DNA of 64,000 nucleotides from Croceivirga sp. GTDB taxonomy: Bacteria; Bacteroidota; Bacteroidia; Flavobacteriales; Flavobacteriaceae. Location: NCBI GenBank assembly GCA_028281025.1, contig JANQKR010000044.1, forward strand, positions 1 to 64,000, given 5' to 3'. Below are positions 31,672 through 62,167 of this stretch, piece by piece (positions within the stretch are counted from its first letter, which is position 1; each line of letters begins with the position of its first letter). Position numbers and translations under genes: made by a program. The notes under the pieces are model-generated. The model was not told where the DNA came from. It searched no databases and saw only the letters and a list, made by a program, of their open reading frames with translations.

Positions 31672-33399
31672 TTGGACACTAGGGAACTACTCACACAATT
31701 GGAAAAGCTGGAATATGGGTTGGATAGCTTTTCTTTTACGGAACTAAAAAGTTCTGAAGCCTCAAGACTTAAAAAATCCTTTGAATCCTTCAAAATTGGT
31801 TTGGAGGAAAAAGTATTTGGAATGCCCGGGGGACCCGTGGAATCGCAAAAAACTACTGCGGGTTACGACCAGGTTGCTACCGAAAGCAAATTGATTGCCA
31901 ATGTAAGCCATGAGATCAGAACACCACTCAATGGAATTATTGGGTTTTTGGACCTGCTGAAAGAGACCCCATTATCCCATCACCAAAATGAACTTGTCAA
32001 TGCCATGGATGGTGCTTCAAAAAACCTTCTGGGGCTCATTAATCAGTTATTGGAATTTTCCAGTTTGGCGTCTGGGCAGGAAAAATTTGAACGGGTTCCC
32101 TTCAATCCCGCTAATTTGATCAATGAGGTGGCTTTTTTGTGTAAAACCCTGATCAACGGGAAGAGCGTTGCACTTTTGGTGAACTATGATGAACGTATTC
32201 CAAAAAACCTTTTGGGAGACCCTTCCAAATTGTCCCAGGTCTTATTGAACCTCGTGGGGAATGCGGTGAAGTTTGTGGAAGAAGGGGAAATACAATTGGA
32301 AGTCAACCTAAAGGAGGAGAAAAGCAAACGGTTGTTCCTGGAATTCATTATCAGCGATACTGGAGTAGGAATTGCCAACGAAAACCTTAAGCATATTTTT
32401 GAGAGCTACAAACAAGCAGAACCCTCAACGAAACTGAAATATGGTGGTTCCGGCCTTGGATTAAGTATTGTTAAGGAAATCATTGAAAAACAGCATGGCT
32501 GTATAGCGGTTTCCAGTGCATTGGGTATTGGCACCACCTTTAAGGTTGTTCTACCTTTTGACAAGGTGGCCTCCGTCCCCGCACCATCCGACCCCAAAAA
32601 TTTGGAGGACAACTTTGATATTTCCAAAAAGGCCATATTGGTATTTGAGGATGACGCACTTACCCAAAGATTAATGCGGAACAGGTTGGAGCAGTGGGGG
32701 TGTAAGCCCTATATAGCCGAAAACGAGGTTTATGGTCTGCAACTCTTAAAAAATCACAACATCGATCTTGTCCTTTTGGATATGCACCTTCCTGGATCAA
32801 ATGGTTTGGAGATCGTTAAAAGGATCCGAAAGAGCAAGGAATACGCAAATTTGCCCATTATTATCCTTTCCGGTGATGCCTACAGCCATAAAGAAGATGT
32901 GTTCCATGATCTGGAAATCAATGACTTTATCCTTAAACCCTACAATTCCGATGAATTGCGCGAAAAAATATATACCAACAGTCAGCATAGGAATCGGGAA
33001 GTTGCGCATACAGCTTCTAAAAAAGAACAAAGGACAGCAGGTACCAAACCAATTGACCTTGATCCGTTGTTACAGGAATGTCTGGGTAAAACGGAACTGT
33101 TGGATGAACTTGTGCGGTTGTTTGAGCAAAATATCCTGGAATTTATCGGGAAGACCAAAATGTATTTACAAAGCGGGAATTTACAGGGCGTGGGATTCGC
33201 TGCACATAAGATAAAATCGTGCTTAAAGATGTTACATGCCAATAGGCTGATCGGCATTTGCGAAGAGATGATCTTGGAATGTAGGACAACCAATAATATC
33301 GAACATCTTAAAGGGCTTTTTGAAGATTTCGTAGGCGAATACCCCAAAATTGAGAAAGCTATGGAAGAGGAGATAAGACGAATTAAACACGAGCTGTAA
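31672..33399 (+). CDS. Soluble hybrid histidine kinase (HisKA-HATPase-REC-HPt)
   Basis: A 575-residue cytosolic phosphorelay kinase without membrane helices. A short N-terminal region (1-65) has no recognised sensor domain. HisKA follows with phospho-acceptor His80 (NVSHEIRTPLNG), HATPase (LSQVLLNLVGNAVKFV, IISDTGVGI, GGSGLGLSIVKEII), a receiver with Asp370 (LLLDMHLPGSNG) and a C-terminal HPt with His512 (AAHKIKSCLKML). TTG 31672 is the only start near the 5' end; an in-frame TGA precedes it by two codons. It is the first gene of the six-gene operon. Confidence 0.88.
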   Translation: MDTRELLTQLEKLEYGLDSFSFTELKSSEASRLKKSFESFKIGLEEKVFGMPGGPVESQKTTAGYDQVATESKLIANVSHEIRTPLNGIIGFLDLLKETPLSHHQNELVNAMDGASKNLLGLINQLLEFSSLASGQEKFERVPFNPANLINEVAFLCKTLINGKSVALLVNYDERIPKNLLGDPSKLSQVLLNLVGNAVKFVEEGEIQLEVNLKEEKSKRLFLEFIISDTGVGIANENLKHIFESYKQAEPSTKLKYGGSGLGLSIVKEIIEKQHGCIAVSSALGIGTTFKVVLPFDKVASVPAPSDPKNLEDNFDISKKAILVFEDDALTQRLMRNRLEQWGCKPYIAENEVYGLQLLKNHNIDLVLLDMHLPGSNGLEIVKRIRKSKEYANLPIIILSGDAYSHKEDVFHDLEINDFILKPYNSDELREKIYTNSQHRNREVAHTASKKEQRTAGTKPIDLDPLLQECLGKTELLDELVRLFEQNILEFIGKTKMYLQSGNLQGVGFAAHKIKSCLKMLHANRLIGICEEMILECRTTNNIEHLKGLFEDFVGEYPKIEKAMEEEIRRIKHEL

Positions 33400-33780
33400 A
33401 TGGATAAGCGAAAACTCCTTTTGGCAGAAGATGACCAAATGTTGGCCTCACTCTTAAAATATCGTCTTGAGCGTGATGGTTATGAGGTTGTTATTGAGTT
33501 CGATGGTAGGTCGGTCAAGGAGAACCTTGAAGTTGCCATACCCGATATTGTTATTTCGGATATCATGATGCCCTATTTTTCTGGAATAGAATTGGTGGAT
33601 TATGTTCGGAACAAACTGAATTCGGATGTGCCAATTATTTTGATTTCAGCAGCATCAAACGATGAAAATATAGTAAGTGCCTTTGAAATGGGAGCGAACG
33701 ATTTTATTGCAAAGCCGGTTAGCCCATCTGAATTGATGGTAAGGGTATCAAGGGAAATCAAAAGACATTATTGCACATAA
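33400..33780 (+). CDS. Stand-alone receiver-domain response regulator
   Basis: A 126-residue single receiver domain: acidic pocket Glu10/Asp11/Asp12, phospho-acceptor Asp54 (VISDIMMPYFSG), Ser83 (ILISAAS) and Lys105 (FIAKPVSP) are all present. No output domain, so it signals by protein contact. It starts on the base after the kinase stop, making it the likely phosphate acceptor from the HPt domain. The HEAT-repeat gene begins inside its last codons, hinting that the HEAT protein or the glycosyltransferase complex is the target. Confidence 0.88.
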   Translation: MDKRKLLLAEDDQMLASLLKYRLERDGYEVVIEFDGRSVKENLEVAIPDIVISDIMMPYFSGIELVDYVRNKLNSDVPIILISAASNDENIVSAFEMGANDFIAKPVSPSELMVRVSREIKRHYCT

Positions 33781-35852
33781 CTAAACCAACATACCAAATC
33801 TTAACCATTCTGGGCATCCCAAAAATCCATACGGACCTGCTTTGGGACCTGACCTTTTTGTTTTTGGTCCTGGGGGGACTTTATTTCGTTTTTGTATTCT
33901 TTTTTAGGAACAAGTTGTCCCGGCTAAGGTTAAAAACAAAAGGAAAACGCCAGGAACTGGCACCCATAATCAGTAATTTTTTGTTCCATAGTCCAGAAGA
34001 CCCAAAGGATGAACAGAAGGAATATGTACAATTAAAAATTAGGATTAGGGAATACCTGAACGATCGGTCCTTTAGAAAAATCATTTCCCAAATTCTTTTT
34101 GATCTACAAAAAGACGTGGCCGGTGGTACCAGGGAGCGTTTATTTAAACTGTACAAACAACTGGAACTCCATCATGATTCCTTTCAGAAACTGGAAAGTT
34201 GGCGTTGGGAAACCGTTGCCCAGGGCATTTTGGAACTCTCTGAAATGGAAGTTGAAGAGTCCTATCAACTAATTCAAAAGTTTATCAATGACCGCCGGAG
34301 TGTAGTGCGCAAACAAGCGGAACTGGCTACCGTGGGATTGCGAAAGGATGGCATAGATTTTTTATTGGATACCACCAGGCACCCCATTAGTGAATGGCAA
34401 CAGTTAAAGCTCATTGAGACCTTGGGGAAAATAAAAAACTACCGGCCTCCCCAATTCAAAGCCTGGTTATTGTCCCAAAATAAGGATGTGGTCCTTTTTG
34501 CCCTTCGTCTCATAAAGCATTACAACCAAAAAGGGGCCGAAGCCTCAATCAAGGAATTGGTAAAACACAAGAACGATGAGATAAAAACAGCGGCCATACA
34601 GTGTATTGTCGATTTCAACTTTGTGAGCGCCTTGGGTACGCTCAAAAAGGTGTTTTGGAAAAGCTCCAACATGGTCAAAATCAACATTCTCAATGCGGTA
34701 GCTTCTTTGGGGTCGGCATATGATATTCTGTTTTTGGAAGAAGTAGCCTCAAAGGAAAGCAGTTTCATTATCGTTGGGAAAGCACAAAGTACCATAAATA
34801 CCATAAAGCCGGAGACGGTCTTACCATCCAAGGATATCCTAAAGGTATCCCATGATGAAGGTAAAAAAGGGTCTTTTTCCAAAATGGACGGAGAAGATAC
34901 CGAGAACAAGGTCGATGCTATTGACGTTACCTATGAGGAAGTGTTGCAAAGCCCCCCAGAAACCATTGAGGTTGAGGACATAGAGTTTTATGATGCCATA
35001 GAAATGCCCGAGCCCAAGAATAAAACGCACCCGGTCGAACCCATAACCCCTGCGTTTGAGTTGCAACCGATTGAAGAGGGTTATGGAAATTCAATAGACC
35101 AGTTGTTGGGGGTATTGCCATCCATTGGTGAGGATTTGGATTCCAGCGCTTTGATAAAAGGTTATGACAGCATTTCGGATTTGGAAAAATCACAACTTGT
35201 AGAGCGATTGGAGGAATTTGCCGATGAACGGGAACTTCCATTATTGGAGCATATTGCCGAAAATGAGTCCAACTCGGAACTGCGTTTCAAAGCCTTTAAG
35301 GCAATGCGGTCAATTAAGCAAAGTGTCCCAATGGATAAGGGAGGGGATCTTCCAGCAAAGGGAACGGAACTACCATTGGAGCAGCAAAGCATTTTTTATG
35401 CCCTTTACCAGTACGCTTCGGACTTGGATTCCAAACTCATCCTCTTAAAGGAACTTATGGATGTTGGGGACGAAAAGGAAATACCATTTTTAAAAAGTCT
35501 TTTGGCCATATCCAATGGCGTCCTCTTAAAAACCGTGCGTAAGGCGCTCGATAAACTCGAAAATAAGAGTTTGGTACAAGAAGTAACCTTGTCCGATGAA
35601 CCACCTGAAGCTCCAAAGGAAATGGATGGTAATGGGAATACGGGTCGTGTTCAAAACGAGGATGGCCAGAAAAGGGATTTGGAAGATGACGAACGTATTC
35701 CTTTGGAACTTTTGTTCCTGTATGAGGAACTTGGCATAAAAGCTGCCAAAAAGGAAGGACAGGATACGTTCCCATTTGACTTTGAACTGTCCGAAGAATT
35801 CTTCCTAGGGGGTTCCAGGGATGCACAAAACGGAAAAAAAGATTATGAATAG
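33771..35852 (+). CDS. Membrane-anchored HEAT-repeat protein
   Basis: A 693-residue protein started at TTG 33771, overlapping the receiver gene by 10 bp; no earlier ATG exists in frame. One membrane helix (about 25-45, LLWDLTFLFLVLGGLYFVFVFFF) is followed by a basic stretch and a large cytosolic region rich in alpha-helical repeats (ELATVGLRKDGIDFLL..., EIKTAAIQCIVDFNFVSALG), then an acidic low-complexity linker and further HEAT-like repeats near 490-600. It looks like a scaffold linking the receiver to the membrane glycosyltransferase that follows. No enzyme motif is seen. Confidence 0.78.
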   Translation: MHITKPTYQILTILGIPKIHTDLLWDLTFLFLVLGGLYFVFVFFFRNKLSRLRLKTKGKRQELAPIISNFLFHSPEDPKDEQKEYVQLKIRIREYLNDRSFRKIISQILFDLQKDVAGGTRERLFKLYKQLELHHDSFQKLESWRWETVAQGILELSEMEVEESYQLIQKFINDRRSVVRKQAELATVGLRKDGIDFLLDTTRHPISEWQQLKLIETLGKIKNYRPPQFKAWLLSQNKDVVLFALRLIKHYNQKGAEASIKELVKHKNDEIKTAAIQCIVDFNFVSALGTLKKVFWKSSNMVKINILNAVASLGSAYDILFLEEVASKESSFIIVGKAQSTINTIKPETVLPSKDILKVSHDEGKKGSFSKMDGEDTENKVDAIDVTYEEVLQSPPETIEVEDIEFYDAIEMPEPKNKTHPVEPITPAFELQPIEEGYGNSIDQLLGVLPSIGEDLDSSALIKGYDSISDLEKSQLVERLEEFADERELPLLEHIAENESNSELRFKAFKAMRSIKQSVPMDKGGDLPAKGTELPLEQQSIFYALYQYASDLDSKLILLKELMDVGDEKEIPFLKSLLAISNGVLLKTVRKALDKLENKSLVQEVTLSDEPPEAPKEMDGNGNTGRVQNEDGQKRDLEDDERIPLELLFLYEELGIKAAKKEGQDTFPFDFELSEEFFLGGSRDAQNGKKDYE

Positions 35853-37275
35853 TGGGGTATTTGACATATTCGTAGAGTACATGAACATTATTTTTTTGGT
35901 GTTCTCCACAGTGCTGTTCTCCATGTTCAGTATTATGGGTTATCTATCTGCCCGTAATTCCATCCACTATCGAAACAAAAACAGTTTTGGGGATTTGTCC
36001 AAGGTAATGGCATCACCTCTGGCCCCTTCCATAACCATTATAGCCCCGGCTTTCAATGAAGGGATGACCATTGTGGAAAATGTGCGGTCGCTACTGTCCC
36101 TAAAATATGTGAATTATGAGGTAATGGTGGTCAATGACGGGAGCAAGGACGACACTTTGGAAAAACTGATCGGTGCTTTTCATCTGGAAAAAATTGAATA
36201 TGCCATGGACCCCAATTGGAAATCCAAGCCCGTCCGGGGCATTTATAAGTCCAACCAAAAAAGTTTTTCCAAGCTAACGGTCATCGACAAGGAAAACGGA
36301 GGCAAATCAGATGCCTTAAATACTGGGGTCTACCTTTCTGAAAACAGGTATGTAGGTTGTATTGATGTGGATTGCCTATTGCAGCCGGACGCACTGCTCC
36401 ATGTGGTCAAGTCGTTTTCACAACGATCGCAGAAAAGGGTCATTGCTGTTGGCGGTGTCATTAGGGTAGCCAATTCCTGTACCATTTCCGGGGGTACCCT
36501 GGAAGAAATTAATTTGCCTAAAAATTGGCTCGCCAAATTTCAATTATTGGAATATACGCGTTCCTTTTTGCTGGGTAGGATGGCCTGGGGAAGGATAGAT
36601 AGTTTGCTGATCATCTCGGGGGCCTTTGGCTTTTTTGATCGGGAGATCGCCCTGGCCGTTGGCGGATATGATACCAATACGGTAGGGGAGGACATGGAAA
36701 TTGTTTTTAGGATGCGGAGGTATATGCATGATGAGGACATTCCATATACCATTGAGTATATTCCAGACCCACTTTGCTGGACGGAAGTACCGGAAAGCTT
36801 AAAGGTTTTGGTGAAGCAAAGGGATAGATGGTCCCGCGGTAACCTGGAAACACTTAAAAAGCACAAGGACATGTTCTTTAATCCCAAGTACGGGAGATTG
36901 GGAATGTTGAGTTATCCCTATTGGTTCTTCTATGAATGGATGTCGCCCATTTTGGAGTTCCTGGGATTCTTTTCCATCATCCTGTTTTACATTTTAGGGA
37001 TTTTGAACTGGGAATTCTTTTTGGCCATCACACTGGCCATCTACACCTTTAGCGTGATGTTCTCTTTTTACGCAATCCTATGGGATGTGTATTCCTACAA
37101 TCAATACAGCAAGACCAAAGACATCCTGATCTTGATGTTCTGCGCCATTGTAGAACCTTTTTTCTTTCATCCCATAGTGGTATGGTCCGCGATAAAAGGG
37201 AATTACAAAAAACTGTTCAAAATACAATCCGGTTGGGGTGCAATGACCCGAAAAGGGTTTAGTAAAGCTACATAA
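35821..37275 (+). CDS. Processive GT2 glycosyltransferase (PgaC/NfrB-like)
   Basis: A 484-residue membrane glycosyltransferase. N-terminal membrane helix (about 20-43), then a GT-A domain with MVVNDGSKDD, DVD (182-184), acid in TVGEDMEI (287-293) and QRDRW (333-337), the QxxRW motif of processive synthases. Three or more C-terminal membrane helices follow. This layout fits poly-N-acetylglucosamine, N4-glycan or hyaluronan-type polymerases. It overlaps the HEAT gene by 32 bp; ATG 35845 is an alternative start. No PilZ or MshEN domain is visible, so regulation by the phosphorelay is inferred. Confidence 0.88.
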   Translation: MHKTEKKIMNSGVFDIFVEYMNIIFLVFSTVLFSMFSIMGYLSARNSIHYRNKNSFGDLSKVMASPLAPSITIIAPAFNEGMTIVENVRSLLSLKYVNYEVMVVNDGSKDDTLEKLIGAFHLEKIEYAMDPNWKSKPVRGIYKSNQKSFSKLTVIDKENGGKSDALNTGVYLSENRYVGCIDVDCLLQPDALLHVVKSFSQRSQKRVIAVGGVIRVANSCTISGGTLEEINLPKNWLAKFQLLEYTRSFLLGRMAWGRIDSLLIISGAFGFFDREIALAVGGYDTNTVGEDMEIVFRMRRYMHDEDIPYTIEYIPDPLCWTEVPESLKVLVKQRDRWSRGNLETLKKHKDMFFNPKYGRLGMLSYPYWFFYEWMSPILEFLGFFSIILFYILGILNWEFFLAITLAIYTFSVMFSFYAILWDVYSYNQYSKTKDILILMFCAIVEPFFFHPIVVWSAIKGNYKKLFKIQSGWGAMTRKGFSKAT

Positions 37276-39608
37276 TGGAGATAAAGACCAACATAAAAAA
37301 AACACGGACCTTAAAGGATTTCACCAGAATCCTTATTGGTTTTGTCTGCGCGCTTTTTGTGCTCTCCATGTATCAGCAATTCAGCCTTTTTCACGGAGGG
37401 GTCATTGACAGGCCTTTGAACAGGACCCTTCTTTTACTGTTGGTAAATCACTTGGGTTTCGCAGCAGTACTCTCATTTGTCCTTTTATTGGTGTTCCGTT
37501 TCCTGGAACGCAGTAAGCCTGGTACTGGGTTTAGGGGATCAATAGCGCTTTTTTCCACTTTTTTGCTATTCGAGGTCCTTTTGATCGAAAACTTTATCCG
37601 CAATTATTCGATGCTGCATATCACCGACTTTCAATCTGGGTTTTCATTGACGCTAAGCAATACCATTATCCTAAAATTTGTACTGGTCATCCTGGGTATT
37701 GGACTACTTTATTTTTTGTTCTATAAGCTTTCTGCGTTTTTAAACCCCTTTATTGGCAAAATGTATCCTTTTACCATCATCCTTTTTTTGCTGGCATTAA
37801 GTACATCGGTTACCGAGAAAAGTCCGATCAATCAAAATAAGACCTTAAGTTTTATCTCGGAAACTGCGGACTATCTTCTGGATTTTAATACCTATGAAGG
37901 CAAGGAATATCCGTTGCTAAAGGAATGGGAAAAAGATGATTTGTTTGTTGAACATTTTACCTCCAATGCCCATTCCCCAAATATTGTTATAGTGGTATGG
38001 GATGGTCTCAGGCCCGAATTTCTCAGGGAAGGTAAATTTGCGGGATTTACCCCGTTTCTGGATTCCATTACCCAAAAATCCTTGTATTGGAATCGTTTTT
38101 TGGCCAATTCCACTTCAACGACCGATGCGGTCACCAATATTCTGGGGTCCTTGCCCCAGGGCGAAAATGGGTTTATGGCCCTGGAAAACTCGGCAAATAG
38201 AAATACGCTCTTTGGTCTTTTAAAGCAGAACAACTACAACACCGGGTTCTATTTTGGGGGGAACGCCTCCTTGAACAATATGGACAGGTTTCTGAATGAG
38301 GAACAAGTGGATATTGTTTTGGACAAATCAAGGTTCAGTAATAGCTATGTACTTCAGGAAGCGGATCGGGCGGGGGTCACTTTGGGATATCCCGATGGGG
38401 AACTGTACAAAAAATGGGGTTCGTCCTATTTTGCCTCGAATCAGCCCAAAATTGAGTTTTTTCTGAATTTAAGTACGACCAAACCTTTCTCCATTCCGGA
38501 TTCCGACTACTATGAATCATGGGTCGAAAAGGCTTTTGATACCATGAAATTCGATGGAAAACAAAAGCGGTTTGTCAAAAAGAATGTCGATTTGTTTGCG
38601 GCAATGAACTATACAGATGATGCCCTTGGGAAACTCTTCAAGATGTACGCATTGACGAAGGATGCCGGGAATACCATTTTTGTGGTTACCGGTAGTGGAA
38701 AAAACTATCTGCCCATTGAAAATCCATTACAACAATATCAAGTGCCCTTAGTGATTTACAGTACACTGTTAAAGCAAGGAATGGAATTCAATAATCTGGC
38801 TTCGCATCACGATATAGCCCCTAGTTTATTGAGTTTGCTACGGCAGCAGCACGGTTTTGAGCTACCACAAAAAAGCGCTTGGTTGGGAAACGGACTGTTG
38901 CGGGAGGATGGCAAAGTGGTTTTGTCAATAGCCAATAATGGAGTCAAGGCACTGGTATACAACGGTCATTTTGTCAAAGGCCGAAAAGTTGCAGGAATAG
39001 GGGATACCCTGGAACTTTTAACTCCCAACGATTCCGTAAAAGGACGGCTCAAGAAAGAATTAAAGTTTTTTAAGGCCATTAATTCATATGTGACCAAGGA
39101 GAATAAAATCCTTCCTAGGGACCTGGCGGTCTATGAGAGCGGTAAAAAACAGTTCACCAAGGAAGAAATGGTTTGGATAAGCAGTGTTTTCAATGGAAGG
39201 AATTATGACAATGCCTATAACAGCGCCAGGGAATTGGCCCATGATGGGAATTATGACAAGGCATTGCTTTTATCCGCCTACATCCTGGACAATGTTCCAG
39301 GCCATATTGATGCCTTGATATTACAAGGAAGGATACATGCCTGGAAGAAGCATTACAATAAATCCATCATGCTTTTGGAAAAGGCCGTTGACCTCCATCC
39401 TTTTTATCAAGATGCCTATGGAGCGTTGTTGGATGTGTATTATTGGTCGGGAAACAACTCAAGGGCGTCCAGGATATATGAACAAATGAAGGAGAACAAT
39501 ATTGAAACCGTTGAGCTGATCAAAAAAGTGGAACGCTGTATGAACCGAATGGGAAAAATTCAAAATGTGGAAAAAAACCAAATAACGGGTATTCAGTTTC
39601 AGGAGTAA
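37275..39608 (+). CDS. Alkaline-phosphatase-fold membrane transferase with C-terminal TPRs
   Basis: A 777-residue protein. Residues 1-200 contain about five membrane helices. The extracytoplasmic domain has a sulfatase/LTA-synthase-like active site: NIVIVVWDGLRPEFL (metal-binding Asp), STSTTDAVTNILGSLP with a candidate nucleophilic Thr, and a late ASHHDIAPSLLSLL (metal His/Asp). Such enzymes transfer phosphoglycerol or phosphoethanolamine, or hydrolyse sulfate esters. A TPR tail (about 650-770) follows, unusual for this family and probably for docking. Overlaps its neighbours by one base each. Confidence 0.8.
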   Translation: MEIKTNIKKTRTLKDFTRILIGFVCALFVLSMYQQFSLFHGGVIDRPLNRTLLLLLVNHLGFAAVLSFVLLLVFRFLERSKPGTGFRGSIALFSTFLLFEVLLIENFIRNYSMLHITDFQSGFSLTLSNTIILKFVLVILGIGLLYFLFYKLSAFLNPFIGKMYPFTIILFLLALSTSVTEKSPINQNKTLSFISETADYLLDFNTYEGKEYPLLKEWEKDDLFVEHFTSNAHSPNIVIVVWDGLRPEFLREGKFAGFTPFLDSITQKSLYWNRFLANSTSTTDAVTNILGSLPQGENGFMALENSANRNTLFGLLKQNNYNTGFYFGGNASLNNMDRFLNEEQVDIVLDKSRFSNSYVLQEADRAGVTLGYPDGELYKKWGSSYFASNQPKIEFFLNLSTTKPFSIPDSDYYESWVEKAFDTMKFDGKQKRFVKKNVDLFAAMNYTDDALGKLFKMYALTKDAGNTIFVVTGSGKNYLPIENPLQQYQVPLVIYSTLLKQGMEFNNLASHHDIAPSLLSLLRQQHGFELPQKSAWLGNGLLREDGKVVLSIANNGVKALVYNGHFVKGRKVAGIGDTLELLTPNDSVKGRLKKELKFFKAINSYVTKENKILPRDLAVYESGKKQFTKEEMVWISSVFNGRNYDNAYNSARELAHDGNYDKALLLSAYILDNVPGHIDALILQGRIHAWKKHYNKSIMLLEKAVDLHPFYQDAYGALLDVYYWSGNNSRASRIYEQMKENNIETVELIKKVERCMNRMGKIQNVEKNQITGIQFQE

Positions 39609-40816
39609 TGGGTAAACGCTTTATTTATATGGTATTTATTGGGCTTGGTTGTTTTTGGGTACGATCCCAGGGAATAACCGACCCAGATAGCTCCTTTTTA
39701 AGTGCCCGAAATATTGCTTTTGAAGGCAACCGGGCCGTTGCCAGGGATTCCCTGGAACAAATTCTGGCAGCATATCCGGATTATACCGATGCGGCCATTC
39801 TCATTGCAAAGACGTACACTTGGGACAAAGACTATAATGAAGCCCGAAAGCGTTTTAATCGAATACTATCGGTAAAGCGACAAAAAAGGGAGGCCTGGTT
39901 GTCGGCCATAAAGAATGAGCTGTATTCCAAAAACCTGAATATTGCCCTTGGGCTTTCGAATAAGGCCCTAATATACCTTCGTGAAGATAAGGCCATTGAG
40001 GAATTGCGTAGTCAAGTTGTTTTCGAATTGAATAAAAAGCCTCCTATCCAGGAAAAGCTGAAAGAGGAAAACAAAAACCTGAAACGAAAAAACGGTATTT
40101 CCGTTTCAACGACCATTGAAGTCTTCGATGTTGTTTTTGACGCCATGTACGAAACCTCCGTAACATACCAGACCCAAACCAAACTTGGACAAATCCTGCC
40201 CAGGATCAATTACGCCCAAAGATTTAACCAAACCGGAACCCAGTTTGAAATGGATATCTATCCCACCATTTCCAAAACGTTCCATGGATATGTGAATTAC
40301 GGGTATTCCAATGCGGTCATATTTCCCAAACACAGGGCAGGATTGGAACTCTATGCGGAGTTGCCCAAAGCGTTTGAGGTGTCCCTTGGGGCCAGACATG
40401 TGCGGTTTACGGCAAACAATGCCACCATTTTTACGGGGTCCTTTGGGATGTACAGAGGGAACTATTATGTGTCGGCTAGGCCTTTTGTTTCGGTTAGGAA
40501 TGATGGACAAATGGGTTGGGCAGGGAACGTTTTGGCAAGAAAATACGGAAAGGATGGCAATCATTTTTTTGGCGTTCGGGCGACCTATGGCTTCGATTCC
40601 GAGTTGAACCAGCTTATTGTGGATGGCGAATTGCTTTCCGCCACCCAATTGTTCCTGGAAACCCAAATGTTGAACCTGGAATATCAGTTTGCCGACAAAA
40701 ACGACATAGGGCTGTATACTTTAAATGCAGGGGTGAGACGACAAGAACTCTTTTTTGATTCCGGCAACTTCTTTTGGGGCGTTTCCTTTGGACTTCGGTA
40801 CCAATTTCGTTTTTGA
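39608..40816 (+). CDS. YaiO-type outer-membrane beta-barrel with periplasmic TPRs
   Basis: A 402-residue secreted protein: signal peptide MGKRFIYMVFIGLGCFWVRSQ; TPR-like repeats (about 25-160, YTDAAILIAKTYTWDKDYNEARKRF); then a 16-strand-like barrel with the YaiO pattern (YGYSNAVIFPKHRAGLELYAELPKAFEVSLGARHVRF) ending FGLRYQFRF. It is the probable outer-membrane exit channel for the polymer made by the GT2, as PgaA or NfrA are for theirs. Last gene of the operon; it follows the AP-fold gene with a one-base overlap. Confidence 0.85.
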   Translation: MGKRFIYMVFIGLGCFWVRSQGITDPDSSFLSARNIAFEGNRAVARDSLEQILAAYPDYTDAAILIAKTYTWDKDYNEARKRFNRILSVKRQKREAWLSAIKNELYSKNLNIALGLSNKALIYLREDKAIEELRSQVVFELNKKPPIQEKLKEENKNLKRKNGISVSTTIEVFDVVFDAMYETSVTYQTQTKLGQILPRINYAQRFNQTGTQFEMDIYPTISKTFHGYVNYGYSNAVIFPKHRAGLELYAELPKAFEVSLGARHVRFTANNATIFTGSFGMYRGNYYVSARPFVSVRNDGQMGWAGNVLARKYGKDGNHFFGVRATYGFDSELNQLIVDGELLSATQLFLETQMLNLEYQFADKNDIGLYTLNAGVRRQELFFDSGNFFWGVSFGLRYQFRF

Positions 40817-41220: not shown

Positions 41221-42084
41221 TTACCCCAAATACGATTTCAAGATTTTGCACTTAGAACTATGTCTCAATTTTCGAATGGCCTTTTCCCTAATTTGTCTCA
41301 CCCGTTCCCTGGTCAGATCAAAAGTACTCCCAATTTCCTCCAGGGTCATGGAAGGCTGTTCTCCAATCCCGTAATATAGACGAACAACATCGGCTTCCCT
41401 GGGGGAAAGGGTGTCCAGGGCCCGATTTATTTCCGTGTTCAGTGATTCATGCATCAATTCCTTATCCGGACGCGGGGATTCCCCTGCTTTCATGACGTCG
41501 TATAGATTGGAATCCTCCCCTTCTTTTAAGGGAGCATCCATGGATACATGACGCCCGGTATTTTTCATGCTTTGCTTTACTTCGGTGACCGTCATGTCCA
41601 ATTCTTTGGCAATTTCCTCCGCAGAAGGAGGTCTTTCATGGGCCTGTTCCAAATAGGAAAACGTTTTTTTGATCTTATTGATGGAACCGATCTTGTTCAA
41701 TGGCAAACGCACCACCCTGGATTGTTCCGCCAATGCCTGTAATATGGACTGGCGGATCCACCATACCGCATATGAAATGAACTTAAAACCACGTGTTTCA
41801 TCAAAACGTTTGGCAGCCTTGACCAGACCTACATTGCCTTCATTGATCAAATCAGGCAAGGTCAATCCTTGATTCTGATATTGCTTGGCAACGGAAACAA
41901 CAAATCGAAGGTTGGCATTGGTCAGCTTTTCCAGGGCAGCTTGGTCCCCTCTTTTAATTCTTTGGGCCAGTTCCACCTCTTCATCGGCCGTTATCAATTC
42001 TATTTTGCTTATGTCTTGTAGGTATTTGTCTAGGGATTTGGATTCACGGTTGGTTACTTGTTTAATGATTTTAAGTTGCCTCAT
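41221..42084 (-). CDS. rpoD: Primary sigma factor RpoD/SigA, Bacteroidota type
   Basis: The housekeeping sigma factor, 287 residues from ATG 42084 ([25 protein letters not shown]), the usual Bacteroidota start; an in-frame ATG at 42120 adds 12 residues and is less likely. Region 1.2/2 ([27 protein letters not shown]...[38 protein letters not shown]), 2.4 ([15 protein letters not shown]), region 3 and region 4.2 ([28 protein letters not shown]) are complete. It lacks the long region 1.1, as in this phylum. Confidence 0.96.
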
Positions 42085-42271
42085 TCGTGTTCTGGGTTTA
42101 GTGTGTATATAAGCTCTCATTATACATTTTTAACGCGGCAATTCCAAACGGAATCATGTAATCTTTTCAAAAAATTATCAGTAGTATTTTACGGTACTTG
42201 AATTCGGCTATTGTTAATAGTATTTTGATATTAAAGGGCAGGTAGTTTTTCGTGCCAATTTAAAAATCGCC

Positions 42272-43834: not shown

Positions 43835-45070
43835 ATGAAAAGACTTCTTGTCATTGGCCATATTTGGCCCGAGCCTACTACCACTGCCGCGGGAAATCGG
43901 ATGCTACAGCTTTTGAGGGCTTTTTTGGACAGGGATTATGAAATTACTTTTGCTTCGGTAGCAGTACGGACCGAATACTCCCATGACCTGACCACAATGG
44001 GCATTGAAGAAGTATCCATAAGGCTCAATCATAGCAGTTTTGAAGATTGGGTCAAAAAGAAAAACCCGGATATTGTGGTGTTTGACCGATTCATGGTCGA
44101 GGAACAATTTGGTTGGCGAATAGCTGAAAGCTGTCCAAATGCCTTAAGGGTGTTAAATACCGAAGATTTACATTCCCTAAGGGAATATCGGAAAGTATGC
44201 TTGAAAGGGGACAGCACATTTGCCACAACGGATTGGCTGCAACAGGATAAGACCAAACGTGAAGTGGCCAGTATCTTCCGTTCAGATCTCACCTTATTGG
44301 TATCCTCTTTTGAGAAAAGCCTCCTCCAAGAGGCAACGGGAATGGGCGAAAGCCTTTTGTGGTGTTTGCCCTTTATGCTTGAAGAAATAAGTGAGGCACA
44401 CAGGGCTACTTGGCCCAGTTTTGAGGAGCGTTTGGATTTCATTTCCTATGGCAATGGAAAACATGCCCCCAATGTAGATTCCTTTGCCTACTTAAAAAAG
44501 GTTATCTGGCCAATGATCAGAAGGGAATTGCCCGAAACAAGACTCCATATATATGGGGCTTACCTGCCACAACAAGTTAAGGACATGCACCGGTCCAAAG
44601 ATGGGATTTTGGTCCACGGTTGGACCCCGGATTTGGAAAAAAAGGTGGAACAGGCCCGTATGGTGTTGGCTCCCTTGCGTTTTGGCGCTGGAATTAAGGG
44701 AAAATTGGCTGTGGCCATGCAATGTGGCACGCCCAGCATAACTACGGATATAGGAAAAGAAGGAATGGCCATGAGCTCGGCCTGGGCCGGTTTTATTGCT
44801 GATGACCCCAAGGATTTTGCCCAACGAGCTGTAGCACTCTATCAAGAAAAAAGGATTTGGCAAGAGGCCCAACAAGAAGGGATACAACTTATCAATACCA
44901 ACTATAATCGGGAACTTCTGGCAGAAAAGCTTTTCAAAAAAGTGAACCTAATGCTACAAAACCTTGAGGACCATCGGAATAAAAATGTAATAGGCACCTT
45001 GTTGCACCACCAAACCATGAACGCCACAAAATATATGGGGAAGTGGATCGAGGAAAAAAATAAAAGCTAA
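43835..45070 (+). CDS. Glycosyltransferase, GT4/GT1-like (GT-B fold)
   Basis: A 411-residue cytosolic glycosyltransferase of GT-B type. N-terminal LLVIGHIWPEPTTTAAGNRMLQLLRAF is the acceptor-side Rossmann start. The donor domain near the C-terminus has VHGWTPDLEKKVEQARMVLAPLRFGAGIKGKLAVAMQCGTPSITTDIGKEGM, the usual GT4 EX7E-like region (with Gly-Lys rather than the first Glu). It follows the helicase by 3 bp and may be co-transcribed, though no polysaccharide genes are adjacent. It overlaps the next gene's 3' end by 4 bp. Confidence 0.75.
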   Translation: MKRLLVIGHIWPEPTTTAAGNRMLQLLRAFLDRDYEITFASVAVRTEYSHDLTTMGIEEVSIRLNHSSFEDWVKKKNPDIVVFDRFMVEEQFGWRIAESCPNALRVLNTEDLHSLREYRKVCLKGDSTFATTDWLQQDKTKREVASIFRSDLTLLVSSFEKSLLQEATGMGESLLWCLPFMLEEISEAHRATWPSFEERLDFISYGNGKHAPNVDSFAYLKKVIWPMIRRELPETRLHIYGAYLPQQVKDMHRSKDGILVHGWTPDLEKKVEQARMVLAPLRFGAGIKGKLAVAMQCGTPSITTDIGKEGMAMSSAWAGFIADDPKDFAQRAVALYQEKRIWQEAQQEGIQLINTNYNRELLAEKLFKKVNLMLQNLEDHRNKNVIGTLLHHQTMNATKYMGKWIEEKNKS

Positions 45071-59276: not shown

Positions 59277-60398
59277 ATGCAGCAAAACGTAATAATTGTG
59301 GGGGGTGGCCTAGCCGGGCTTACCGCATCCATTTTGCTCTCCAAGGCCGGTATTGAGGTATTGGTCATTGAGAAAAACCCGTATCCCAACCATAAAGTCT
59401 GTGGGGAATATGTCTCCAATGAGGTCCGGCCCTTATTGGAGGGTTTGGGCCTTGATATAAAGGCGCTGGGGGCTGTGGATATCAAGTCCTTTTCCTTGAG
59501 TACACTTACGGGCAAATGCATTGATGTTAAATTGGCCTTGGGCGGTTTTGGGGTAAGCCGTTATGCATTGGACAATGCCCTGTACCATTTGGCACTCGAA
59601 AGTGGGGTGGAGTTTGCCTTTGAAACGGTAACCGACATTGTTTTTGAAGATGATTCTTTTAACATAACATCGGATAACGGTCACTATCAGGCATCCGTGG
59701 TGCTTGGTTGTTATGGAAAACGTTCAAATTTGGACAAAAAACTAAATCGGGGTTTTTTAAAACAGCAATCGCCCTGGCTTGGTGTCAAGTGTCATTATCG
59801 TTTAGCTGACTTTCCTTCGGATAGGGTAGAACTGCACAGCTTTTATGGGGGTTATGGAGGACTGTCCAAAACGGAACAAGGTTCGGTGAACTTTTGTTAT
59901 TTGGCCAATTATGCAAGCTTTAAAAAGTACCGAAACATTGCAGAGTTCAACCGAAACATTGTTTCTCAAAACCGTTATCTAAAGCAGTTTTTGGAAAAAG
60001 CAGAACCCGTTTTTGAAAAACCTCTAAGCATTGCCCAAATATCATTTGCCTCAAAAACCATTGTGGACAACCATGTTTTGTACTGTGGGGATAGTGCAGG
60101 CTTAATACATCCGCTGTGCGGCAATGGGATGGCGATGGCCATTCATGCTGGAAAAATTGCGTCGTCCTGTGCCATTCGGTTCCTTACCGAGAAGGGGTAT
60201 CGGAGAGTGGATATGGAGTACGATTATACCAATTTATGGAAAGCGACCTTTGCGAAACGTTTACGGTATGGCCGGTATATTCAAAAGCTTTTATTAAATC
60301 CTAAACTAGCGGATGTGATTTTTTCAATTATCCCAAAATCCCAAAGAATTATCAACCCGATCATCCAAAGAACCCATGGAAAGCCTATCTTAGTGTAA
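59277..60398 (+). CDS. FAD-dependent oxidoreductase (geranylgeranyl-reductase-like), first gene of the type III PKS operon
   Basis: A 373-residue flavoprotein of the GGR/hydroxylase type. GxGxxG dinucleotide site VIIVGGGLAGLTASILLSKAGIEVLVIEKNPYP, the NHKVCGEYVS motif after it, and the second FAD motif YCGDSAGLIHPLCGNGMAMAIHAG are all present. In polyketide loci such enzymes hydroxylate or oxidise the aromatic product. Stop and next start overlap by one base (TAATG). It is the first of at least six coupled genes. Confidence 0.85.
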   Translation: MQQNVIIVGGGLAGLTASILLSKAGIEVLVIEKNPYPNHKVCGEYVSNEVRPLLEGLGLDIKALGAVDIKSFSLSTLTGKCIDVKLALGGFGVSRYALDNALYHLALESGVEFAFETVTDIVFEDDSFNITSDNGHYQASVVLGCYGKRSNLDKKLNRGFLKQQSPWLGVKCHYRLADFPSDRVELHSFYGGYGGLSKTEQGSVNFCYLANYASFKKYRNIAEFNRNIVSQNRYLKQFLEKAEPVFEKPLSIAQISFASKTIVDNHVLYCGDSAGLIHPLCGNGMAMAIHAGKIASSCAIRFLTEKGYRRVDMEYDYTNLWKATFAKRLRYGRYIQKLLLNPKLADVIFSIIPKSQRIINPIIQRTHGKPILV

Positions 60399-61105
60399 TG
60401 GATATTTCCATTAGAAGTTCGGAGGTTGAGCTTATGGATCGGCCAGGACTGGATAAGAAGTCCCTCACCAACGCGCTAAAAGACATCAATTTTTGCAATA
60501 CTTGGCTTGGTGGTTACCGTTTGACCATAAATGCCGTCCTTGATTTGGTCAAATCGGATAGGAAAAAATCGTATACGATTTTGGATGTAGGATGTGGGGA
60601 CGGGGAAATGCTGCGAAAACTGTCAAAAACACTCCATGACAAAGGTATTTCCCACCGCCTTCTGGGTATCGATATCAATAAGACCATTTTAGGGATTGCG
60701 GAAGAGAAATCCCAGGATTTTTTGGATATCGGATACCGATATAGCGATATTTTGACCGATGATTCCCTGGACTGTGACATTTTGTTGTGCACGTTGACCC
60801 TGCACCATCTTAAGCAGGAGGAAATTCCCCTTTTCTTAAATCGATTTGTGGCCATTGCCCGTGTTGGAGTGGTCATCAACGATTTGCAACGGAGTAGGGC
60901 CGCCCATTTTTTGTTCAAAATCTTCCGGGCCGTTTTTTTAAAATCCAAAATTGCCAAGAATGATGGTTTGGTATCCATTAGGCGAGCTTTTAAAAAGGAA
61001 GAACTCTTAGGAATGTCCAAACAGATTGCCGGGGCCTCACATCGGATTTCATGGAAATGGGCCTTTCGCTATGTTTGGATACTTAAACCGCAATTGCAGG
61101 GATAA
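60398..61105 (+). CDS. SAM-dependent methyltransferase, class I
   Basis: A 235-residue methyltransferase. Motif I TILDVGCGDGEMLRKLS, an adenine-contacting acidic residue in LGIDINK, motif IV ILLCTLTLHHLKQEE and a later VVINDLQRS are clear; the C-terminal lid is short. No DNA- or protein-specific domain is fused, so the substrate is likely the small-molecule product of the next gene. It overlaps the FAD gene by one base and precedes the type III PKS by 6 bp. Confidence 0.85.
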   Translation: MDISIRSSEVELMDRPGLDKKSLTNALKDINFCNTWLGGYRLTINAVLDLVKSDRKKSYTILDVGCGDGEMLRKLSKTLHDKGISHRLLGIDINKTILGIAEEKSQDFLDIGYRYSDILTDDSLDCDILLCTLTLHHLKQEEIPLFLNRFVAIARVGVVINDLQRSRAAHFLFKIFRAVFLKSKIAKNDGLVSIRRAFKKEELLGMSKQIAGASHRISWKWAFRYVWILKPQLQG

Positions 61106-61111
61106 CGACGT

Positions 61112-62167
61112 ATGGGTGAAGCAAAAATTATTGGAGTGTCCAAAGCACTTCCCAAATATTCGAGGACTACCAAGGAGATTATCCCTTTTGTCAATCTATG
61201 GCTTGGCGACCAAGAAGAGCGTTTTCGAAGAAAGGTGGTCAAAATTTTTGAAGGGGCAGGTGTGGACAAACGATATGGTATCATGTCCATAGAAGAGGTG
61301 TTTACGGCCACATCTTTTGAGGATAAAAACCGTGTTTACGCCCAAGCAGCAAAGGAATTGGGAACAAAGGCCTTGAAATCCGCCCTAAAGGATTCCAATT
61401 GGGAGCCGGACTCCCTGGATTACATCATTACGGTAAGTTGCACGGGTATTATGATTCCTTCCTTGGATGCCTACTTGGTGAATGCCCTACAACTACGACA
61501 GGATATCGTAAGGCTTCCGGTTACTGAAATGGGTTGCGCTGCCGGAGTCTCCGGAATGATCTATGCCGCAAACTTTTTACGGTCCAATCCCGGTAAACGG
61601 GCAGCAATAATTGCTCTGGAAAGCCCAACGGCGACCTTTCAACTGAATGATTATTCCATGGCCAATATGGTTAGTGCCGCAATTTTTGGTGATGGAGCGG
61701 CCTGTGTGCTGTTATCATCCAGAACGTCGGATAAGGGGCCAAAAATAGTGGGTGAAGGCATGTACCATTTTTATGATGCCATAGGAATGATGGGCTTTGA
61801 TTTGACCAATACCGGGCTTAAAATGATTCTGGATCCAAAGGTTCCCGAGACCATAGAAGAACATTTTCCACTTTTGACCAATCCGTTTTTGGAAGGACTG
61901 GGCTCAACAATTGAAAGGGTAAACCACCTTATTTTTCACCCGGGCGGAAGAAAGATCGTGCAAACCGTTGAAGCGTTGTTTGGAAAATTGGGCAAGAATA
62001 TAGATTTGACCCGGAAGGTCCTCAGGGAATACGGGAACATGAGCAGTGCGACCGTACTCTATGTACTGGAGGAATTTATGAAAAAGGACGTACCAAAAGG
62101 CCAACAGGGGTTGATTTTAAGTTTTGGACCCGGTTTTTCCGCCCAACGTGTTTTAATTGAATGGTAA
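61112..62167 (+). CDS. Type III polyketide synthase (chalcone-synthase-like)
   Basis: A 351-residue homodimeric thiolase-fold enzyme that extends an acyl starter with malonyl units without an acyl-carrier protein. The catalytic triad is Cys142 (EMGCAAGVSGM), His276 (IFHPGGRK) and Asn309 (REYGNMSSAT). The C-terminal GPGFSAQRVLIEW matches the family. It resembles alkylresorcinol/alkylpyrone synthases more than plant CHS. Starter and chain length cannot be read from sequence. It is the biosynthetic core of the operon. Confidence 0.93.
   Translation: MGEAKIIGVSKALPKYSRTTKEIIPFVNLWLGDQEERFRRKVVKIFEGAGVDKRYGIMSIEEVFTATSFEDKNRVYAQAAKELGTKALKSALKDSNWEPDSLDYIITVSCTGIMIPSLDAYLVNALQLRQDIVRLPVTEMGCAAGVSGMIYAANFLRSNPGKRAAIIALESPTATFQLNDYSMANMVSAAIFGDGAACVLLSSRTSDKGPKIVGEGMYHFYDAIGMMGFDLTNTGLKMILDPKVPETIEEHFPLLTNPFLEGLGSTIERVNHLIFHPGGRKIVQTVEALFGKLGKNIDLTRKVLREYGNMSSATVLYVLEEFMKKDVPKGQQGLILSFGPGFSAQRVLIEW

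Follow-up and report, generated by a model that had tools for sequence, protein, structure and literature searches.

A predicted six-gene exopolysaccharide synthesis and export operon of Croceivirga with a phosphorelay, a HEAT protein and a degenerate LtaS-fold protein

The window analysed here is a stretch of 64,000 nucleotides from Croceivirga sp. (contig JANQKR010000044.1), and our subject is a compact block of six predicted open reading frames (ORFs) at 31672-40816 of its + strand. All six are open, and Pfam agrees with the domains that an earlier note, made from the sequence alone, had claimed for them (Table 1). In order, they specify a hybrid histidine kinase, a stand-alone receiver, a membrane-anchored HEAT protein, a processive-type glycosyltransferase of family 2 (GT2), a membrane protein of the alkaline phosphatase (AP) superfamily with tetratricopeptide repeats (TPRs), and an outer-membrane barrel of the YaiO family. 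The first two genes abut (0 bp); the next junctions are overlaps of 10 and 8 bp, followed by two junctions of 1 bp each. The tight spacing described in the earlier note thus stands. Its upper value, a 32-bp overlap between the HEAT and GT2 genes, applies only if the GT2 uses an upstream ATG at 35821, and 8 bp is likelier; the start most likely lies at 35845, because the relative in locus L033 starts at the matching Met.

Table 1. Genes and sites of the operon (positions in the window)
Feature	Position	Strand	Basis
Hybrid histidine kinase, TTG start	31672-33399	+	Pfam HisKA, HATPase_c, Response_reg, Hpt; residue table; hydropathy
His80 of kinase (HisKA)	31909-31911	+	
Asp370 of kinase (receiver)	32779-32781	+	
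His512 of kinase (Hpt)	33205-33207	+	
Stand-alone receiver without output domain; phospho-Asp54 at 33559-33561	33400-33780	+	Pfam Response_reg
Membrane-anchored HEAT protein	33771-35852	+	Pfam HEAT_2; model of residues 1-359; hydropathy; motifs
Transmembrane helix of HEAT protein, residues ~27-45	33849-33905	+	
Processive-type GT2	35845-37275	+	Pfam GT2 families; motif alignment
GT2 D-x-D	36364-36372	+	alignment
GT2 GED	36685-36693	+	alignment
GT2 QRDRW (QxxRW motif)	36817-36831	+	alignment
Five-helix membrane protein of LtaS fold (AP superfamily), C-terminal TPRs, degenerate active site	37275-39608	+	Pfam Sulfatase; residues; model
Asp243 for metal Glu of intact relatives	38001-38003	+	alignment
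Thr282 at nucleophile position, Thr retained	38118-38120	+	alignment
Thr402 for His of THEPF-type motif	38478-38480	+	alignment
Ser474-Gly475 for Asp-His of intact relatives (AP metal-pair site)	38694-38699	+	alignment
TPR helices of AP-fold protein, residues 629-767	39159-39575	+	model; also kept in L056
YaiO outer-membrane beta-barrel protein with N-terminal-side TPRs	39608-40816	+	PF19413, TIGR04390, TPR_19
Barrel part of YaiO protein	about 40091-40813	+	

A search for relatives found the HEAT gene in 23 of 60 genomes, the own genome included, and 20 of the 22 other HEAT genomes were taken at length (G017 and G053 are not among them). The complete block, in the same order, is present in 10 of these 20. 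Two more (L042 and L043) keep the six-gene order with a shortened kinase gene. Because 10 relatives hold the full block and two others hold it with a short kinase, we regard the grouping as more than chance. Elsewhere the sets are rearranged or smaller (L044, L048, L049, L050), no kinase is matched at the fetched locus (L046, L047), or the locus ends at a contig edge (L037).

The kinase consists of a conserved N-terminal segment followed by HisKA, HATPase, receiver and histidine phosphotransfer (HPt) domains, with no transmembrane (TM) segment by hydropathy; its Hpt match is barely above the Pfam threshold (24.9 bits against a cut-off of 24.6). The stand-alone receiver shows no DNA-binding domain in the Pfam scan. 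Among 63 aligned receivers, phospho-Asp54 is kept in 59 and Lys105 in all. The kinase core together with its own receiver is gone from three loci, L042, L043 and L054 (the last from Pareuzebyella, where the shortened kinase is split into two ORFs), and in each the N-terminal segment and the HPt with its His are retained. In the residue table, which covers 21 kinases of the window type with distant kinases left out, 20 rows retain the HPt His. The remaining row has Tyr and comes from a same-genus genome (L045:5610-8202), where the kinase and a C-terminal remnant of HEAT remain between the same neighbours. The receiver, GT2, AP and YaiO genes are missing from this locus, HEAT being the only one sought genome-wide there. 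Because the HPt is retained in three genomes and its His is lost along with the receiver and the synthase in one, these natural losses would fit a dedicated relay step from HPt to receiver and support the HPt as a dedicated part.

The HEAT protein has one TM helix near its N terminus, then a solenoid, a linker and a second stretch, and carries the motifs SEWQQ and WLxSxN. A model of its residues 1-359 (predicted local distance difference test, pLDDT, 85.1) consists of a long N-terminal helix and an all-helical solenoid that in fold comparison most resembles armadillo, alphaRep and HEAT-like structures. By hydropathy, an N-terminal TM segment is present in 37 of 38 HEAT rows, and in most of them basic residues flank it C-terminally. 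By the positive-inside rule, the solenoid would then lie next to the GT2 domain, on the cytosolic side of the membrane.

In the GT2, which has TM segments by hydropathy, the D-x-D, ED and QxxRW motifs are invariant in 13 aligned rows. It is the only match of its own genome at E 0.001 in the GT2 search. In the GT2 tree, the named loci placed closest to it point to family Flavobacteriaceae and phylum Bacteroidota for the window. Set against four GT2s of E. coli (PgaC, YaiP, BcsA and NfrB), it comes closest to PgaC, with 29.7% over 300 amino acids. PgaC_IcaA (TIGR03937) is also the best NCBIfam model, at 152.2 bits against a cut-off of 422.3, and by this score the protein is not a PgaC/IcaA equivalog. 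NfrB gave no BLASTP match at E 0.01 and was dropped as the nearest GT2. Of the two parallels drawn in the earlier note, the one with PgaC and PgaA is therefore retained, and the likeness to NfrB and NfrA is the weaker.

PgaA is a TPR-bearing outer-membrane barrel, and the operon has in common with PgaABCD/IcaABCD the combination of such a barrel with a processive-type GT2. It differs in that its barrel is of the YaiO family, that a receiver and HEAT are the partners, and that the TIGR03937 score lies far below cut-off; further, no PgaB- or PgaD-like gene was found among the six genes, to which the PgaB search was confined. With NfrBA-YbcH of E. coli, the system of the phage N4 receptor glycan, it shares a GT2 and an outer-membrane protein. 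According to two reports, NfrBA-YbcH makes a secreted glycan under allosteric control, and NfrB is controlled by cyclic di-GMP (c-di-GMP) and has an MshEN domain (PMC8669469, PMC8669472). MshEN was not matched by Pfam on the GT2 of the window, where only GT2-type models appear at E 0.1. As far as sequence features go, the operon is of the synthase-dependent exopolysaccharide type and, by those tested, a member of neither the Pga nor the Nfr group.

The barrel gene is the only YaiO match of its genome. It matches PF19413 (2.9e-59, 200.4 bits, cut-off 23.9), TIGR04390 (2.4e-52, 178.2 bits, cut-off 32) and also TPR_19, its TPRs lying nearer the N terminus. E. coli YaiO was matched neither by BLASTP nor by our own YaiO profile; the link to it rests on Pfam, whose YaiO model matches in E. 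coli.

A named-genome scan with the GT2 alignment provided a first sample, the best 80 of 391 loci, which is centred on this GT2 subfamily and includes several metagenome bins that may be mislabelled. In 70 of the 80, the profile finds HEAT on the strand of the GT2 and within 500 bases of it. In six more (L116, L122, L124, L127, L129, L130), missed by the profile, a Pfam HEAT_2 protein stands directly before the GT2. In L057, L077, L093 and L109 the GT2 is at a contig edge and adjacency is not judgeable, so that all 76 judgeable loci have HEAT next to the GT2. A receiver within 6 kb and a YaiO gene within 8 kb were each found by profile in 67 of the 80. On these adjacency counts, HEAT is the constant partner of the GT2, which often has a receiver as well.

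Because that sample is centred on one GT2 subfamily, the direction free of this bias is the HEAT-first one, which was taken in a draw of 395 genomes of the phylum with HEAT matches of at least 47 bits counted as strong. There are 61 such matches, and 51 of them lie within 7 kb of a YaiO gene. Nine of the other ten adjoin a GT2, eight of these nine with a receiver; in the tenth (L177), HEAT is alone in the stretch fetched. YaiO is present in 53 of 53 strong-HEAT genomes (the own genome included) versus 40 of 343 others, with a Fisher value of about 1e-40 that is uncorrected for kinship and, like all Fisher values here, rough, since the calculation took 396 genomes and the 395 of the draw seem already to include the own one. 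Near the tabulated weaker HEAT matches, YaiO is found in 6 of 32 cases; about 30 HEAT rows, one at 6.6e-6 and the others weaker than 1.2e-4, lie outside the HEAT-YaiO table. The earlier note had called for a check of whether HEAT, AP-fold and YaiO genes occur together. For HEAT and YaiO they do in the phylum draw; the AP protein is a less regular companion, with a profile match in 25 of the best 80 loci.

Judged by gene neighbourhood, a receiver, a membrane-anchored HEAT protein and a PgaC-like processive GT2, often accompanied by a YaiO barrel, are a conserved unit. The receiver-HEAT-GT2 set is common in Bacteroidota and was met also on a Mesorhizobium plasmid and in records labelled Terriglobia and Gemmatimonadetes.

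The unit occurs in several variants. On the Mesorhizobium ciceri plasmid (L130:6632-11284), a receiver, a TPR protein, HEAT and a GT2 stand in a row, the TPR protein matching YaiO weakly (26.6 bits against a cut-off of 23.9). Flavobacterium omnivorum (L071:8445-19154) carries tandem sets, receiver-HEAT-GT2-AP-YaiO and then HEAT-GT2-YaiO. Two tandem GT2 genes follow HEAT in L100, L103, L105, L106 and L108, and after them comes a YaiO protein of ~950-1030 amino acids, which in L103 is truncated where the contig ends.

The best-known switch of such bacterial matrix synthases is c-di-GMP, and control through PilZ or a similar receptor is the usual, not universal, arrangement in synthase-dependent systems. 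The own genome yields 0 GGDEF matches in a search that matches in 8 of 14 control genomes, and 0 PilZ matches where 5 of the 14 controls match (other c-di-GMP receptors were not searched). This is in line with the earlier suggestion that another input would replace c-di-GMP here. In the phylum draw GGDEF is found in 203 of 395 genomes, namely in 6 of the 52 other HEAT genomes versus 197 of the 343 without strong HEAT.

The AP-fold gene matches Pfam Sulfatase, with TPR_19 at 24.2 bits, just under the cut-off of 25. Hydropathy gives five TM segments, and the model (pLDDT 85.4, predicted template modelling score, pTM, 0.83) comprises an N-terminal membrane part, an AP domain and TPRs. Its nearest structures in Foldseek are LtaP, LtaS and the Vibrio protein 3lxq, with template modelling scores by target length of 0.72 to LtaP and 0.69 to LtaS. 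LtaS has five TM segments. The window protein thus shares with LtaS and LtaP an LtaS-like AP fold behind TM helices, and differs in its C-terminal TPRs and in the loss of the metal pair and one His.

The catalytic set, Glu, Thr/Ser, His and Asp-His, was read from an intact relative (L040) aligned to LtaS-type chains. It is missing from the window protein, which has D, T, T and S-G instead. The formylglycine motif of sulfatases, C/S-x-P/A-x-R, is missing as well; the nucleophile region reads NSTSTTDAV. On these residues (Ser-Gly for Asp-His, Asp243 and Thr402), sulfatase or phosphotransferase activity of the window protein was rejected. The earlier proposal of a working transferase for phosphoglycerol or phosphoethanolamine, or of a sulfatase, falls with the metal-pair Asp and the conserved His; the AP fold with TPRs on which it was built is seen in the model. 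Likewise, the wider interpretation survives in its anatomy of synthase-dependent glycan synthesis and export, given the GT2 motifs and the TPR barrel, and fails in the AP protein as an active enzyme.

The degeneration can be followed among 41 sequences (40 relatives and the window). An intact AP site is present in 27, with Ser for Thr in L046; 13, the window included, are degenerate; and one, from Kriegella (L056), has no AP domain in frame and keeps the TM helices and TPRs. All 13 degenerate rows lack the Asp of the Asp-His pair and the THEPF-type His. They vary elsewhere: L034 and L052 keep the Glu, L041, L052, L053 and L055 keep the second His, and in L033-L035, of the same genus, the Thr of the nucleophile column is absent. 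The ratio of nonsynonymous to synonymous substitution rates (dN/dS) against the close relatives L031 and L032 is 0.118 and 0.091 for the degenerate AP domain, which points to purifying selection, and 0.050 and 0.054 for the TPR part of the gene. From the residues and the model, we read the protein as a pseudoenzyme adaptor. Against this reading speaks the retention of Thr282 and His511 in the window. These two residues, together with the purifying selection, would suit an AP protein that is still an enzyme, acting through Thr282, Asp243 and His511 with another metal site. The losses common to all 13 rows, and the further ones in L033-L035 and L056, argue against such an enzyme, and we consider it the least probable of the alternatives discussed here.

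In the AP tree all 13 degenerate rows form one clade (Shimodaira-Hasegawa-like approximate likelihood ratio test, SH-aLRT, 99; L056, having no domain, was left out), whereas the GT2 tree would need three changes of state. Because the AP tree groups all 13 rows, we claim one origin of the degeneration, and several independent losses of catalysis were dropped. The conflict between the two trees could be caused by swaps between operons or by long-branch attraction.

The AP protein is fused to the GT2 in eight loci (L049, L062, L065, L070, L074, L078, L089 and L168). The seven that are tabulated have intact AP sites; L168 is outside the table. Such natural fusions suggest that the AP protein works beside the GT2. 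A comparable neighbour is BcsG, which belongs to the AP superfamily. Type II Bcs systems (BcsA, BcsG, BcsC) share with the operon a GT2, an adjacent membrane-anchored protein of transferase type and a TPR barrel. BcsG is reported to associate with BcsA, and BcsC to carry TPRs in the periplasm; by analogy, the AP protein may accompany the GT2 in the way that BcsG accompanies BcsA, and BcsA-BcsG-BcsC, which the earlier note did not name, is a known arrangement with such a modifying partner (PMC11379886). The operon differs from Bcs in that no BcsB-like gene was found among the six, no PilZ in the genome, and the AP protein of the window is degenerate; our AP profile gave no match to BcsG. Finally, PbgA/YejM, which is not known to have TPRs, is among the fold matches of the window model and is likewise an inner-membrane protein of the AP superfamily without the catalytic residues of its family. 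It differs in task and is a precedent only, with no common function implied. The absence from PbgA of the catalytic residues typical of the family has been reported (PMC7018646).

We suggest, with a probability of roughly 60%, that the operon is a synthase-dependent exopolysaccharide system in which a phosphorelay through the receiver and HEAT replaces c-di-GMP and the AP protein serves as a pseudoenzyme link. That a polymer is made, that YaiO exports it, that the signal runs from HPt through receiver and HEAT to the GT2 and that the AP protein is structural are what we infer from the sequence. The stand-alone receiver would get its phosphate from this kinase, or from any other that feeds the HPt, and would then dock on the HEAT solenoid. 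HEAT would hold or gate the cytosolic GT2 domain, so that phosphorylation takes the place of c-di-GMP as allosteric switch. The growing polymer would thread through the GT2 channel; two sets of TPRs, one in the AP-fold pseudoenzyme and one in YaiO, would then pass it across the periplasm to the barrel. In relatives whose AP site is intact, the enzyme probably adds to the chain a lipid-derived group of phosphoglycerol or phosphoethanolamine type. The lineage of the window would have abandoned this chemistry and retained the protein itself as a structural or regulatory link.

Several observations weigh against this model. By profile, 13 of the best 80 loci show no YaiO gene within 8 kb. A receiver within 6 kb is not found in 13 either, of which five are truncated at the end of their contig (L055, L057, L077, L093 and L109); neither gene is thus universal. 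In the phylum draw, 40 of 97 YaiO matches have no tabulated HEAT nearby, so YaiO is not exclusive to the set. The genome counts are uncorrected for common descent, six HEAT genomes do carry GGDEF, and Hpt is not matched in the distant kinase of L044. HEAT and a GT2 are also paired in a Paenibacillus record (L125:8830-11338), with no receiver found nearby; this is a Gram-positive without an outer membrane, where outer-membrane export cannot apply. The pair speaks for HEAT as a partner of the synthase and not of the export step.

The loci in which no receiver was found are in keeping with HEAT serving alone. It might then be a fixed assembly scaffold or chaperone of the GT2, the receiver just docking other proteins or acting as a phosphate sink, and control being transcriptional or through the supply of substrate. 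HEAT-type solenoids are general docking surfaces, as the armadillo, alphaRep and HEAT-like fold matches illustrate. The phospho-Asp kept in nearly all aligned receivers and an HPt that outlives its kinase core fit a live phospho-input, and a receiver without a DNA-binding domain argues against transcriptional control; we consider this alternative unlikely. Less probable still is that the GT2 makes a short lipid-linked or teichoic-acid-like wall glycan, with the AP protein as a remnant of that pathway and YaiO exporting something else. The LtaS-like character of the AP relatives, the Paenibacillus pair and the YaiO genes without HEAT would agree with it. PgaC_IcaA as best NCBIfam model, even below cut-off, the presence of QxxRW and the tie between YaiO and HEAT speak for the exopolysaccharide system instead.

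Around the operon, other genes of the window were recorded. A sigma-70 factor gene follows on the opposite strand (41221-42120), and a relative of it is present in 13 of the 20 fetched loci. Past this gene and helicase-like genes lies a group 1 glycosyltransferase gene (43835-45070), for which no link to the operon is shown. The stretch 59277-62167 contains a flavin adenine dinucleotide (FAD) oxidoreductase gene and a chalcone-synthase-like (type III polyketide synthase) gene, possibly of a pigment or lipid pathway.

No description of this system was noticed in searches of a full-text library with few subscription papers, as judged by titles and the beginnings of abstracts. More broadly, receiver-HEAT-GT2 might represent a separate, widespread class of processive glycan synthases, gated by a phospho-receiver through a membrane-anchored HEAT adaptor and used mostly without c-di-GMP, with the AP protein of the window lineage as a TPR link across the envelope that has lost catalysis; we put this forward tentatively, at somewhat less than even odds. 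In 46 of the 52 other HEAT genomes of the phylum draw, and in the window genome, there is no GGDEF match. If HEAT and receiver are the switch, this gap in the control of Bacteroidota exopolysaccharides becomes directly testable. The AP-fold protein, in turn, would be a traced case of erosion from enzyme to structural part: the same place in the operon is taken by an intact, a degenerate or a domain-deleted form.

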